Assembly: GCA_030584085.1 (NCBI GenBank)
Contig: CP129490.1
Coordinates: forward strand, 901,511-965,510
Origin: Melioribacteraceae bacterium
GTDB lineage: Bacteria; Bacteroidota; Ignavibacteria; Ignavibacteriales; Melioribacteraceae
DNA: 64,000 nt
Direction of reading: 5' to 3'
Made by a program: the position numbers and the translations under genes
The notes under the pieces: model-generated
Databases searched by the model: none
What the model was told of the DNA's origin: nothing
Seen by the model: the letters and a program-made list of their open reading frames with translations, nothing else
Shown: positions 13,855-37,172 of the stretch, one piece after another
Layout: each line of letters starts with the position of its first letter
Position numbering within the stretch: the stretch's first letter is position 1

Positions 13855-13884
13855 AAGGGGTCACCTAGTGACCCCTTTTTTTTT
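13855..13884 (+). terminator. Rho-independent terminator after the OmpA gene
   Basis: AAGGGGTCAC (13855-13864) pairs with GTGACCCCTT (13868-13877) around CTA and is followed by a long T-run to 13884. Confidence 0.9.
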
Positions 13885-13942
13885 GATATTTTTATATTGA
13901 TTTAATTCTTTTTATTATTGCAACGTATTTCCCTTTAATTTT

Positions 13943-13968
13943 ATCCAGAGAGATAATCAAGGATTGGA
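13943..13968 (+). promoter_or_regulatory. PyrR-binding-loop-like hairpin in the pyr leader
   Basis: The leader contains ATCCAGAGAGATAATCAAGGAT (13943-13964). Its ATCC and GGAT ends can pair, leaving CAGAGAG in the loop. This resembles the conserved AUCCAGAGAGG core of PyrR-binding loops described in Bacillus pyr attenuators; the next consensus G is A here. It lies between the OmpA terminator and a second terminator-like hairpin, directly in front of pyrR. Function is inferred from resemblance and position. Confidence 0.5.
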
Positions 13969-14000
13969 AAAAATAATTACATATCACACAAACACGGAGA

Positions 14001-14034
14001 CCTCAAAGACTATTTGTCGATGAGGATTTTTTTT
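14001..14034 (+). terminator. Attenuator terminator overlapping the pyrR ribosome binding site
   Basis: CCTCA (14001-14005) pairs with TGAGG (14021-14025), a 2x2 internal loop follows, GAC pairs with GTC, and eight T (14027-14034) run up to two bases before the pyrR ATG. The GAGG in the 3' arm is also the only plausible ribosome binding site. Formation of this hairpin would therefore both end transcription and mask translation. Confidence 0.6.
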
Positions 14035-14036
14035 AT

Positions 14037-14585
14037 ATGAACATAAAAGCAAAAATTATTGACGAAGATGGTTTAAAGAGAACCATCGCCCGACTAGCTC
14101 ATGAAATTATTGAGAGAAATAAAGGAACAAAAAATGTTGTTTTAATTGGGATGAGAACTCGAGGTGAGTTTATTGCTCAAAGAATTCATAAGAAGATCCA
14201 AGAAATTGATAGTAGCAATATTGAATTAGGCGTTCTTGACATAACATTATATCGTGATGATTTCCGAATGAGATTAAAACAACCAGAGGTCTCAACAACA
14301 GATATTACATTTGATATTTCCGAAAAGGATGTTGTTCTTATTGATGACGTTCTATACACTGGTAGAACAGTGAGAGCAGCTCTTGATGCATTAATGGATT
14401 TAGGAAGACCAAATACAATCCAATTTTGTGTGTTGGTTGATAGAGGACATCGTGAGCTTCCTATTAAAGCAGATTTTGTTGGTAAAAATATTCCTACTTC
14501 AATAAATGAAGAAGTAAAAGTTAAATTAACAGAAACCGACGGTGAAGATGCTGTTTATTTAATAGATATTTCAAAAGAAGGATAA
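14037..14585 (+). CDS. pyrR: PyrR bifunctional pyr regulator / uracil phosphoribosyltransferase
   Basis: This 182-residue protein is the family's usual length. The PRPP-binding motif VVLIDDVLYTGRT is at 99-111, and the PyrR-typical LDITLYRDD (67-75) and VLVDRGHRELPIKADFVGKN are present. In Firmicutes PyrR binds pyr leader RNA in a UMP-dependent way and attenuates transcription; it also has weak uracil phosphoribosyltransferase activity. Here it is the first gene of pyrR-pyrB-pyrC and is preceded by a PyrR-box-like element and a terminator, which supports regulatory use. Confidence 0.93.
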   Translation: MNIKAKIIDEDGLKRTIARLAHEIIERNKGTKNVVLIGMRTRGEFIAQRIHKKIQEIDSSNIELGVLDITLYRDDFRMRLKQPEVSTTDITFDISEKDVVLIDDVLYTGRTVRAALDALMDLGRPNTIQFCVLVDRGHRELPIKADFVGKNIPTSINEEVKVKLTETDGEDAVYLIDISKEG

Positions 14586-14599
14586 AAGAGAGAAAAAAA

Positions 14600-15520
14600 A
14601 TGCCATTATCGAGCAGACATTTATTAGGTTTACACGGTGTTCCGCGAGAAGATATTCAACTTATATTAGATACCGCAACAACCTTTCGTGAAGTTCTTGA
14701 AAGACCAATTAAAAAAGTCCCGACTCTACAAGGGAAGACAATAGTTAATCTTTTTTATGAAAGCTCAACAAGAACAAGAATCTCGTTTGAGTTAGCTCAA
14801 AAAAGGTTATCGGCCGATACCATAAATTTCGCAAAGTCCGGTAGCAGTACAAGTAAAGGGGAAACATTCAAAGATACCGTTAAAAATATTGAAGCAATGA
14901 AAGTTGATATGATCGTAGTTAGACATGAATCAGCTGGAGTTCCGCAGTTTTTAACAAAGATTTCCAATGCAAATATTATTAATGCGGGTGATGGAAGACA
15001 TGAACATCCAACTCAAGCATTACTAGATATGTATTCGATCAAAGAAAGACTTGGTAAAATAGAAGGTTTGAATGTTTGTATTGTTGGTGATATCGCGCAT
15101 AGCAGAGTTGCATTATCAAATATCTACGGATTAAAAGCTATGGACGCAAATGTTTCTGTTTGCGGACCCAAGACTATGATTCCAAAAGATATTGAATCGC
15201 TAGGTGTAAAAGTATTACATAACATTGATGAAGCTATTTCATCAAATGATGTCTTGAATGTTTTGAGAATTCAACTAGAACGTAAGGCTGGAAGCACAAT
15301 TCCAAGTTTACGTGAATATCATAACTATTTTGGAATTAATGCGGAAAGAATTGAAAAAAATAATAAAGATATTGTCATCTTGCATCCCGGTCCCATAAAT
15401 AGGGGAGTTGAAATTTCATCGGAAGTCGCCGATGGACCTTATCAAGTTATTCTTGATCAAGTTACAAACGGTGTTGCAGTAAGAATGGCAGTACTTTATT
15501 TGCTTGGAATTAAGAACTAA
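14600..15520 (+). CDS. pyrB: Aspartate carbamoyltransferase, catalytic subunit
   Basis: This 306-residue protein catalyses carbamoyl phosphate + L-aspartate to carbamoyl-aspartate, the committed step of pyrimidine synthesis. The carbamoyl-phosphate signature STRTR is at residues 56-60 (YESSTRTRISFE). SGSSTSKGET supplies the loop from the neighbouring subunit, and RHESAG, GDGRHEHPTQALLD and LHPGPINRGVEI complete the active site. The gene lies 14 bp after pyrR and 23 bp before pyrC. No regulatory subunit (pyrI) gene is in the window. Confidence 0.95.
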   Translation: MPLSSRHLLGLHGVPREDIQLILDTATTFREVLERPIKKVPTLQGKTIVNLFYESSTRTRISFELAQKRLSADTINFAKSGSSTSKGETFKDTVKNIEAMKVDMIVVRHESAGVPQFLTKISNANIINAGDGRHEHPTQALLDMYSIKERLGKIEGLNVCIVGDIAHSRVALSNIYGLKAMDANVSVCGPKTMIPKDIESLGVKVLHNIDEAISSNDVLNVLRIQLERKAGSTIPSLREYHNYFGINAERIEKNNKDIVILHPGPINRGVEISSEVADGPYQVILDQVTNGVAVRMAVLYLLGIKN

Positions 15521-15543
15521 ATTCTAAATTCGGAAGGAAAGAA

Positions 15544-16833
15544 ATGAAAATTTTATTAAAAGATCTAACAGTTATTGATCCTTCGGTTAAACTAAACGAG
15601 AAAGCTGATCTGCTTATTGAAGATGGTGTGATTACAAAAATCGGAAAATTGAAATCTTCAGAAATAAAAGACGCAAAAATTTTTGAGCTCGAAGACAAAA
15701 TTTGTACACCCGGATTTTATGATATGCATGTTCATCTTCGTGAACCCGGAAGAGAAGATGAGGAAACTGTTTTAACCGGAAGTAATAGTGCCGCTGCAGG
15801 CGGATTTACTGGTATTGCTTGTATGCCCAACACATCTCCGGATATTGATTCAGCCGAAGTTGTAAACCTTATTAAAGAAAAAGCAAAAAATCATCTAGTC
15901 GATGTTCATCCAATCGGAGCAGCTACATTAAAAAGAAAAGGTGAAGAACTTGCACCGATCGCCGAAATGGTTGATTCTGGAATTGTTGCCGTATCTGATG
16001 ATGGTGTTGCAATTAAATCGGCCGCAATTTTAAGAAATGTTTTAGAATATACACAGATGTATAATATTCCCGTTATTGAACATTGTGAAGATCCATCTCT
16101 GGCAGATGGTGTGATGAACGAAAGTTTTTCTTCTACAAATTTGGGTTTGCCATCAATTCCAACTGTTGCTGAGGATTTGATAGTTATGCGAGATATAATA
16201 ATGGCGGAATATTGCGGAGGACATGTTCACATTTCTCATATTTCATCAGCAAATTCAGTGGAAATGGTTAGACAAGCAAAGAAACGAGGACTTAATATTA
16301 CAGCCGAAGTTACACCTCACCATTTTTCCTTAACCGATGAGAATCTTAAATCATACGATACTAATTTCAAAATGAATCCTCCTCTAAGAACTCAAAAAGA
16401 TATTAATGCGATGATAGAAGGATTGAAAGACGGAACGATTGATTGTATTGCAAGTGATCATGCACCACATTCAATCGAAGAAAAGGAAATGGAATTTATT
16501 TATGCTCCAAACGGAATTGTCGGTTTAGAAACAGAAGTTGGATTAGCATTAACAGAATTGCTTCATAAAAAACACTTAACCATAGATCAACTAATTGAAA
16601 AGTTTGTTATCAATCCGCGTAAAATTCTTCGATTAAATTTACCAACAATAAAAGTTGGTCAAAAAGCAAATTTGACATTTTTAGATCTCAATCAGGTTTG
16701 GACAGTGGACATTTCTAAATTCAAATCGAAATCAAAAAATTCTCCGTTCGATAAAAGGTTATTAACCGGAAAAGCTATAGGAGTAATTAATAATTCCCAA
16801 ATGTTTTTCAACGGAGAGTTTAAAAAAATATAA
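15544..16833 (+). CDS. pyrC: Dihydroorotase (class I amidohydrolase)
   Basis: This 429-residue cyclic amidohydrolase has metal-binding FYDMHVHLREPG near residue 60, IEHCEDPSL, HISHISS, and IASDHAPH with the catalytic aspartate. The length and the HxHLREPG form match type I dihydroorotases (Bacillus PyrC type), which close carbamoyl-aspartate to dihydroorotate. AAGGAAAG precedes the ATG. It ends the pyrRBC operon; the remaining pyrimidine genes are not in this window. Confidence 0.93.
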   Translation: MKILLKDLTVIDPSVKLNEKADLLIEDGVITKIGKLKSSEIKDAKIFELEDKICTPGFYDMHVHLREPGREDEETVLTGSNSAAAGGFTGIACMPNTSPDIDSAEVVNLIKEKAKNHLVDVHPIGAATLKRKGEELAPIAEMVDSGIVAVSDDGVAIKSAAILRNVLEYTQMYNIPVIEHCEDPSLADGVMNESFSSTNLGLPSIPTVAEDLIVMRDIIMAEYCGGHVHISHISSANSVEMVRQAKKRGLNITAEVTPHHFSLTDENLKSYDTNFKMNPPLRTQKDINAMIEGLKDGTIDCIASDHAPHSIEEKEMEFIYAPNGIVGLETEVGLALTELLHKKHLTIDQLIEKFVINPRKILRLNLPTIKVGQKANLTFLDLNQVWTVDISKFKSKSKNSPFDKRLLTGKAIGVINNSQMFFNGEFKKI

Positions 16834-37033: not shown

Positions 37034-37121
37034 TGTATTTTTTTATGGAATTCTTTTGACTTGTTTTGTTGGGCAATCAAATATGTATCACTTATCCCTT
37101 ATTTATTTAGTTTCAAGATAT

Positions 37122-37172
37122 AGCAATTCATTCGTAATGAATAGGTCGCCGGTTCGACTCCGGCAGTCGGCT
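37122..37172 (+). pseudogene. 3' fragment of tRNA-Thr
   Basis: This carries the anticodon arm, variable loop, T-arm and 3' acceptor strand of tRNA-Thr(CGT). The 5' acceptor strand and D-arm are missing, so it cannot fold as a tRNA. It is what remains of the original gene end after integration. Confidence 0.9.

Follow-up and report, generated by a model that had tools for sequence, protein, structure and literature searches.

The pyr operon of a Melioribacteraceae bacterium is probably controlled by PyrR-gated leader-peptide attenuation, in which the regulator PyrR would decide whether a ribosome enters a short leader open reading frame (ORF) and the ribosome would decide whether a terminator forms. 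This reading is built on the comparison of genomes, which supports a predicted PyrR-binding loop, a terminator hairpin with its T-run, a putative leader ORF, the lack of an evident antiterminator and a single loop in the genome. The window, meaning the whole stretch of DNA analysed (64,000 nucleotides of contig CP129490.1, positions 901,511 to 965,510 of the forward strand), comes from a genome of 3.74 Mb assembled as a single contig.

Organization of the leader and the operon

The terminator of an upstream gene and the pyrR-pyrB-pyrC operon (14037-16833, genes named via NCBIfam) are separated by 159 nt. This region contains the loop, a 38-nt spacer, the hairpin and a tract of eight T (Table 1). 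The protein encoded upstream of the leader has OmpA-domain matches, the best of which lies below the curated cutoff (130.9 vs 175 bits).

Table 1. Features of the pyr leader and operon, in window coordinates.
Feature	Positions	Strand	Basis
Rho-independent terminator of the upstream OmpA-like gene	13855-13877	+	terminator scan
Candidate -7 promoter element TATTATTG	13913-13920	+	one mismatch to TAnnTTTG
PyrR-binding loop (predicted) CCTTTAATTTTATCCAGAGAGATAATCAAGG	13932-13962	+	RF00515 match below cutoff, conservation, covariation
Leader ORF, TTG start, 19 codons (MEKIITYHTNTETSKTICR), TGA stop	13964-14023	+	position and openness kept in relatives
Terminator hairpin CCTCA..GAC..GTC..TGAGG with 2x2 internal loop	14001-14025	+	covariation, shuffle folding
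pyrR Shine-Dalgarno GAGG, within the hairpin 3' arm	14022-14025	+	sequence
T8 tract of the terminator	14027-14034	+	such a tract in 51/53 loop-bearing leaders
pyrR	14037-14585	+	NF003549 247.7 bits (cutoff 138); PDB PyrR matches including 1a3c and 1ufr
pyrB, aspartate carbamoyltransferase	14600-15520	+	NF002032 405.5 bits (cutoff 263)
pyrC-type dihydroorotase	15544-16833	+	TIGR00857 408.7 bits (cutoff 279)

The -7 label of the candidate promoter element refers to TAnnTTTG, which we take to be the Bacteroidota-type promoter consensus. No exact copy precedes the window's own loop. Among 53 relatives, an exact TAnnTTTG is present 8-40 nt upstream of the loop in 27, compared with a mean of 2.3 and a maximum of 7 in shuffles. 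A second motif, TTTAC(T/A)TT, is found in 27 of 53 loci, mostly 32-44 nt upstream of the loop (window equivalent 13880-13931). Taken together, the two motifs probably represent a Bacteroidota-type promoter, which would place the loop near the extreme 5' end of the mRNA.

The predicted PyrR-binding loop

Clear pyrR genes were found in 54 of the 58 genomes searched (the window's own included), while the other four gave weak matches or none. The upstream regions of all 54 loci of the order, which cover 47 genera, were read. The loop is recognized by pattern in 53 of them (window counted in), locus L053 being the one without it; the compared genomes are related and do not amount to independent samples. 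The first-pass annotation had already placed a PyrR-binding-type loop between the OmpA terminator and pyrR, and conservation and covariation bear this out. The pairing itself has to be redrawn. Instead of the AUCC/GGAU stem proposed then, the relatives support an outer stem CCUU-AAGG (13932-13935 with 13959-13962) and an inner stem UUAUC-GAUAA (13941-13945 with 13952-13956), enclosing a loop of the form C-N-GNGA, here CAGAGA. An element starting at 13943, as previously delimited, misses the outer stem's 5' strand.

The loop alignment comprises 53 rows, 50 of them distinct. Of its pair cells 99.1% are paired, and five of nine pairs have changed on both sides, against 1.7 in shuffles; slid versions come nowhere near. 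For four of five covariation measures none of 500 shuffles reaches the observed value, and for the fifth 4 of 500 do. When the hairpin is aligned together with the loop (49 leaders), 97.1% of the pair cells are paired, 10 of 17 pairs have changed on both sides compared with 4.6 in shuffles, none of 500 shuffles attains the observed value in any measure and the slid controls fall far short. This alignment omits L026 for its length, L042 and L052, which have no T-run, and L051, whose leader repeats that of L050. Neither loop nor hairpin is thus lost in relatives, a check that had been suggested with the initial description. Folding of the single leader sequence is not striking (z -1.24, with 23 of 200 shuffles folding as well), so that the case for loop and hairpin rests on comparison.

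By its loop sequence, its stem in two parts and its place ahead of a pyr gene, the element fits the PyrR binding-site class. The Rfam PyrR family (RF00515) aligns with it from end to end at 13928-14034, the antiterminator region of the model being mostly deleted, with 38.2 bits and E 0.0011 in a 601-base search, below the gathering score of 54. A whole-window Rfam search gives no PyrR match above gathering. Over 148 genomes of the phylum, many of which may lack pyrR, RF00515 yields 13 matches at E <= 0.001, one of them above the cutoff; these 13 do not include the genome of the window. Searched with a covariance model of the element itself, 50 of 197 class genomes give a match, one each; PyrR is detected at E <= 1e-40 in 82 of 149 class genomes. 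The window's genome holds one loop in all, a search with up to 3 mismatches having returned no second one.

The terminator hairpin and the pyrR ribosome binding site

The hairpin pairs CCTCA (14001-14005) with TGAGG (14021-14025) and GAC (14008-14010) with GTC (14016-14018). It is followed by one A and the T-run, which ends 2 bases 5' of the pyrR ATG, as originally described. Five of its eight pairs have changed on both sides, with 96.4% paired, and in all 51 leaders its folding is more favourable than the average over shuffles of the same hairpin. The longest T run measures 5-9 in 51 of the 53 leaders with a loop, a regularity which is partly by construction because the terminator pattern demanded at least 4 T; the two remaining leaders failed this pattern.

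By reading, GAGG in the 3' arm is the only Shine-Dalgarno-like stretch near the pyrR ATG, in agreement with the earlier description of the arm as holding the sole ribosome binding site (RBS). The anti-Shine-Dalgarno sequence GGATCACCTCCTTT occurs once in the genome. The proposed fusion of RBS and terminator holds for 43 of 51 leaders, in which the 3' arm (GAGG or GGGG by pattern) starts at most 17 nt before the ATG. It does not extend to the other eight (L013, L014, L016, L018, L021, L026, L034 and L046), where hairpin and T-run lie farther upstream, apart from the RBS. Because of these eight, termination looks like the older function, seemingly retained where the RBS is left unmasked, and the fusion appears to be a compacted variant of a terminator. 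Effects on transcription and on pyrR translation would be compatible with each other.

The 2x2 internal loop of the hairpin (14006-14007 with 14019-14020) reads AA/GA in the window, GC/AA in 27 of 51 leaders and takes other forms elsewhere. Since the leader frame across this part of the hairpin is not fixed (hairpins of L002-L054), codons do not explain it. It may serve to tune hairpin strength or as a recognition site.

The leader ORF

Conservation and covariation uphold the first-pass reading of an attenuator as far as loop, hairpin and RBS overlap are concerned; what that reading missed is the leader ORF, the putative switching element. In the window, this ORF runs from TTG (13964-13966) to TGA (14021-14023), the stop codon lying in the hairpin 3' arm on the pyrR Shine-Dalgarno. 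An ATG, GTG or TTG stands 0-13 nt past AAGG in 49 of the 51 leaders with a terminator, the window among them. As this distance varies, the start codon is no constant part of the loop sequence. L009, with a GTG overlapping AAGG, and L044, with a possible ATT start, were scored as lacking a start.

In 49 of 49 leaders, no stop codon interrupts the leader frame until 17 nt or less remain to the hairpin 5' arm, a limit chosen from the data itself; for the other two frames this holds in 23 and 30 of 49. Among 400 dinucleotide shuffles of the spacers, a start with an open frame is obtained in 18.3 of 51 leaders on average and in 27 at most. Under a stricter limit of 12 nt, about the reach of a ribosome at the stop codon, the frame is open in 45 of 49, the other frames in 16 and 24, and the shuffles reach a maximum of 25. 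The two leaders without a T-run, L042 and L052, keep the ORF, which there overlaps the pyrR start; translational coupling may take the place of termination in them. Further leaders, too, have the ORF overlapping the pyrR start.

Leaders of the window's family mostly place their start codon 0-3 nt past AAGG, too near for normal Shine-Dalgarno use, and in the window this codon is a TTG; both points speak against the attenuation model proposed here. Initiation may be aided by the A-rich, unfolded spacer or may proceed via GAG in the loop. A codon-position test reveals no third-position excess of changes (20, 30, 27 and 37, 12, 17), hence no coding signature, and a conserved leader peptide is not claimed on this ground. 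The missing codon bias fits a leader in which translation, rather than the peptide, matters, and lends that idea no support.

Relatives beyond the order

A further 49 loci of the class were read. The pattern recognizes the loop in 39; L103 escapes it, yet a loop is visible there when the sequence is read. Among the 39, ten (L056-L083) form a set of seven loci from the window's family plus L070, L075 and L079 from another family; start and open frame are present in 10 of 10, against 5 and 4 for the other frames and at most 8 in shuffles. The other 29 include 24 with a terminator, of which 22 have a start and 19 an open frame (shuffles at most 18), and five with no recognisable terminator. In these families the frame control hardly discriminates (19 vs 18 and 15 among the 22 leaders), and because other frames are open almost as often, the start codon is the main argument. 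Several of the leaders possess a stronger Shine-Dalgarno, AAAGGAG, with a start 7-8 nt on, and several have GC-rich terminators that, as in Thermaceae, are separate from the pyrR RBS. Early stops interrupt the leader frame in L101 and L114, and no start was found in L106 and L117.

Two loci from one family of the same class, L108 and L111, have the loop, and the script found neither a terminator nor a leader start there. They may be under a different, perhaps translational, control.

Outside the class, Thermus PyrR as a query against named genomes gave 80 loci, 40 of which were examined. The loop matches by pattern in 31: 11 of 11 Thermus, 12 of 12 other Thermaceae and eight others from Calditrichota, Omnitrophota, Rokubacteria, a metagenome-assembled genome (MAG) labelled Deltaproteobacteria and an unplaced MAG. 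A start codon lies 0-10 nt past the loop in every one of the 31, and 28 of the frames are open by the script rule. In all 23 Thermaceae the start lies 7-10 nt past AAAG or AAGG, mostly behind AAAGGGG or AAAGGAG. Openness of the leader frame and the other two is hardly discriminating in Thermus (10, 10 and 9 of 11), with similar counts in other Thermaceae (11, 10 and 9 of 12) and in the other groups (7, 6 and 6 of 8). L154 has an early stop in the leader frame. The script takes the first ATG, or else GTG or TTG, and therefore wrongly calls an early stop if ATG or GTG directly precedes TGA. In L093, L135 and L148 a longer frame is seen by eye to begin at a GTG two bases further along; these were counted as failures regardless, in the surveys within and beyond the class. 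The loop pattern is unmatched in five cyanobacterial loci and four others examined, two of the latter (L171 and L199) being loop-like by eye.

Applied to 16 chosen loci, Rfam returns a PyrR match at E <= 0.01 in 11 and misses L129, L130 and L136 (Thermus), L139 (Meiothermus) and L152. Scores of 47.5 for Thermus composti L134 and 60.9 for L160 fall below and above the cutoff, respectively. Thermus, Meiothermus and Calditrichota share the loop-leader layout upstream of pyrR.

The proposed switch and its alternatives

The nascent pyr mRNA would start with the PyrR-binding loop, its AAGG strand positioned at or just 5' of the leader start codon. When pyrimidine nucleotides are plentiful, PyrR with UMP would hold the loop shut; since the 3' strand of the loop sits at the leader start, a loop held by PyrR should exclude the ribosome and leader initiation would be blocked. 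With the leader silent, the hairpin would form, transcription would stop at the T-run and the pyrR Shine-Dalgarno would be hidden in the 3' arm. With PyrR unbound, a ribosome would translate the leader up to or into the hairpin and keep it open, so that RNA polymerase would read through and the pyrR RBS would be exposed. Leader translation probably counts here, and the peptide sequence probably does not.

One alternative dispenses with termination: the hairpin would only mask the RBS and be opened by PyrR-gated leader translation, the T-run having no terminating effect in vivo. The placement of the RBS within the 3' arm (43 of 51 leaders), the ORF overlapping the pyrR start in L042 and L052, both devoid of a T-run, and the five of 29 loop leaders of other families with no recognisable terminator are consistent with it. 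However, a run of 5-9 T follows the stem in 51 of 53 loop leaders, hairpin and T-run are kept in the eight leaders in which they lie farther from the ATG, and several other families as well as Thermaceae have GC-rich terminators away from the RBS. We consider control by translation only unlikely.

Alternatively, the leader ORF might not be translated, its start and open frame being by-products of the A-rich spacer and the loop sequence. The start too near to AAGG in the window's family, codon positions devoid of signal and a frame control that is uninformative in GC-rich relatives all speak for this. Against it, the other frames and shuffles of the same spacers stay well short of the observed counts in the order, and the start keeps its distance of 7-10 nt past AAAG or AAGG in 23 of 23 Thermaceae. 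In our judgement this makes an untranslated leader rather improbable.

In a Bacillus-type attenuator, PyrR stabilises an anti-antiterminator, an antiterminator otherwise replaces the terminator and no ribosome is needed. The window shares the loop type and the end-to-end RF00515 match, albeit with the antiterminator region mostly deleted. Over 51 leaders, the 5' arm of the terminator, taken as 8 nt, pairs with upstream RNA slightly better than shuffles do (mean -5.3 vs -4.5 kcal/mol), and in eight of them the pairing is more than 2 kcal/mol below that of their own shuffles. In the window itself, by contrast, the same 8-nt arm pairs no better than shuffles (-3.4 vs -3.8 kcal/mol, a calculation run without a Bacillus positive control), and the spacer between loop and hairpin is 24-54 nt long, A-rich and variable in length and sequence. 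A conserved antiterminator in the leaders of the order is unlikely; single leaders may differ. Antitermination by a structure exclusive with the terminator was not found in the leader and we give it little credence.

In attenuation by UTP sensing, the mode of E. coli pyrBI, RNA polymerase slows down in U-rich RNA and gives the ribosome time to close up on it. A leader ORF that extends into a terminator ahead of pyr genes agrees with this, but the E. coli leader has U tracts whereas the present one has a PyrR loop and the spacers are A-rich with no pyrBI-like U tracts, and this explanation is very hard to sustain.

Comparison with known systems

PyrR is a textbook case of RNA-based control by antitermination. 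For Thermus ZO5, Van de Casteele and co-workers reportedly proposed in 1997 a PyrR attenuation in which a leader ribosome takes the place of the antiterminator. As reported, that proposal shares with PyrR-gated leader-peptide attenuation in the window a PyrR-type loop, an ORF starting past the loop and overlapping the terminator, and no antiterminator. The window leader has an ORF beside the loop, open to the terminator, and a terminator-like hairpin with T-run before pyrR in the lack of an evident antiterminator, and would thus be of the Thermus type. In Thermus DNA, loop and leader start are present in 11 of 11 named loci, and by the script rule 10 of the 11 ORFs run without a stop to the terminator. 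The first-pass claim of an attenuator outside the classical hosts therefore stands for the present group and has to be qualified by the earlier Thermus proposal and by the same layout in Thermus leaders. Two differences separate the groups: the terminator of the order is compact, its 3' arm usually carrying the pyrR RBS (43 of 51), and the start usually lies 0-3 nt past AAGG, compared with 7-9 nt past AAAG in Thermus.

The PyrR attenuators of Bacillus subtilis resemble the window in their loop of the CCUU..CC-N-GNGAG..AAGG type, in the terminator and in a homologous PyrR (1a3c, E 1.3e-60). They differ in that the window has no evident antiterminator, contains a leader ORF and scores 38.2 against the gathering score of 54 with RF00515. 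Furthermore, B. subtilis has three PyrR loops, whereas the window's genome has one.

In Mycobacterium smegmatis, Fields and Switzer are said to have described in 2007 a translational repression by PyrR. There, a PyrR loop reportedly controls ribosome access, as it would here, but it covers the RBS of a pyr gene. The window's loop ends at 13962, ahead of the pyrR start at 14037, touches the start of the leader ORF instead and is followed by a terminator. In E. coli pyrBI a ribosome on the leader ORF likewise prevents the terminator, as would be the case here, but the signal is RNA polymerase speed and there is no PyrR loop. A literature search of titles and abstract openings, with most subscription journals outside it, returned no description of the present arrangement.

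Implications

These comparisons suggest that a ribosome-dependent PyrR switch, reportedly proposed for a single Thermus strain, occurs widely and mostly lies below the Rfam cutoff. Relative to that proposal, the leader switch is predicted here for a large set of other bacteria, and the RBS is usually fused into the terminator arm in the order. The Thermus proposal becomes directly testable in many genomes, and a simple rule serves to spot candidates: a start codon within about 13 nt past the AAGG of the loop, with a frame open to the hairpin. The leaders of the order also illustrate how an RBS can be absorbed into a terminator.

More tentatively, PyrR gating of leader-ORF translation might be an old and general mode common to Thermaceae, the window's class, Calditrichota and others. 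At its root, the CCUU/AAGG stem would have masked a Shine-Dalgarno; the Bacillus antiterminator would be a later replacement, and the switch of the order a compacted form in which one hairpin serves both termination and pyrR translation. We regard this scenario as possible, if doubtful.

Lastly, tRNA sequences occur next to several pyrR leaders. Rfam places a tRNA gene just 5' of the leader in L114, L153, L156, L157 and L160, and tRNA-like sequence is seen by eye in this position in L086, L088, L090, L092, L095, L102, L110, L123 and L124, so that the neighbourhood spans different families and phyla. The window itself contains two strong tRNAs elsewhere and a low-scoring tRNA match at 37105-37167 (35.4 bits, model positions 5-66 of 71).
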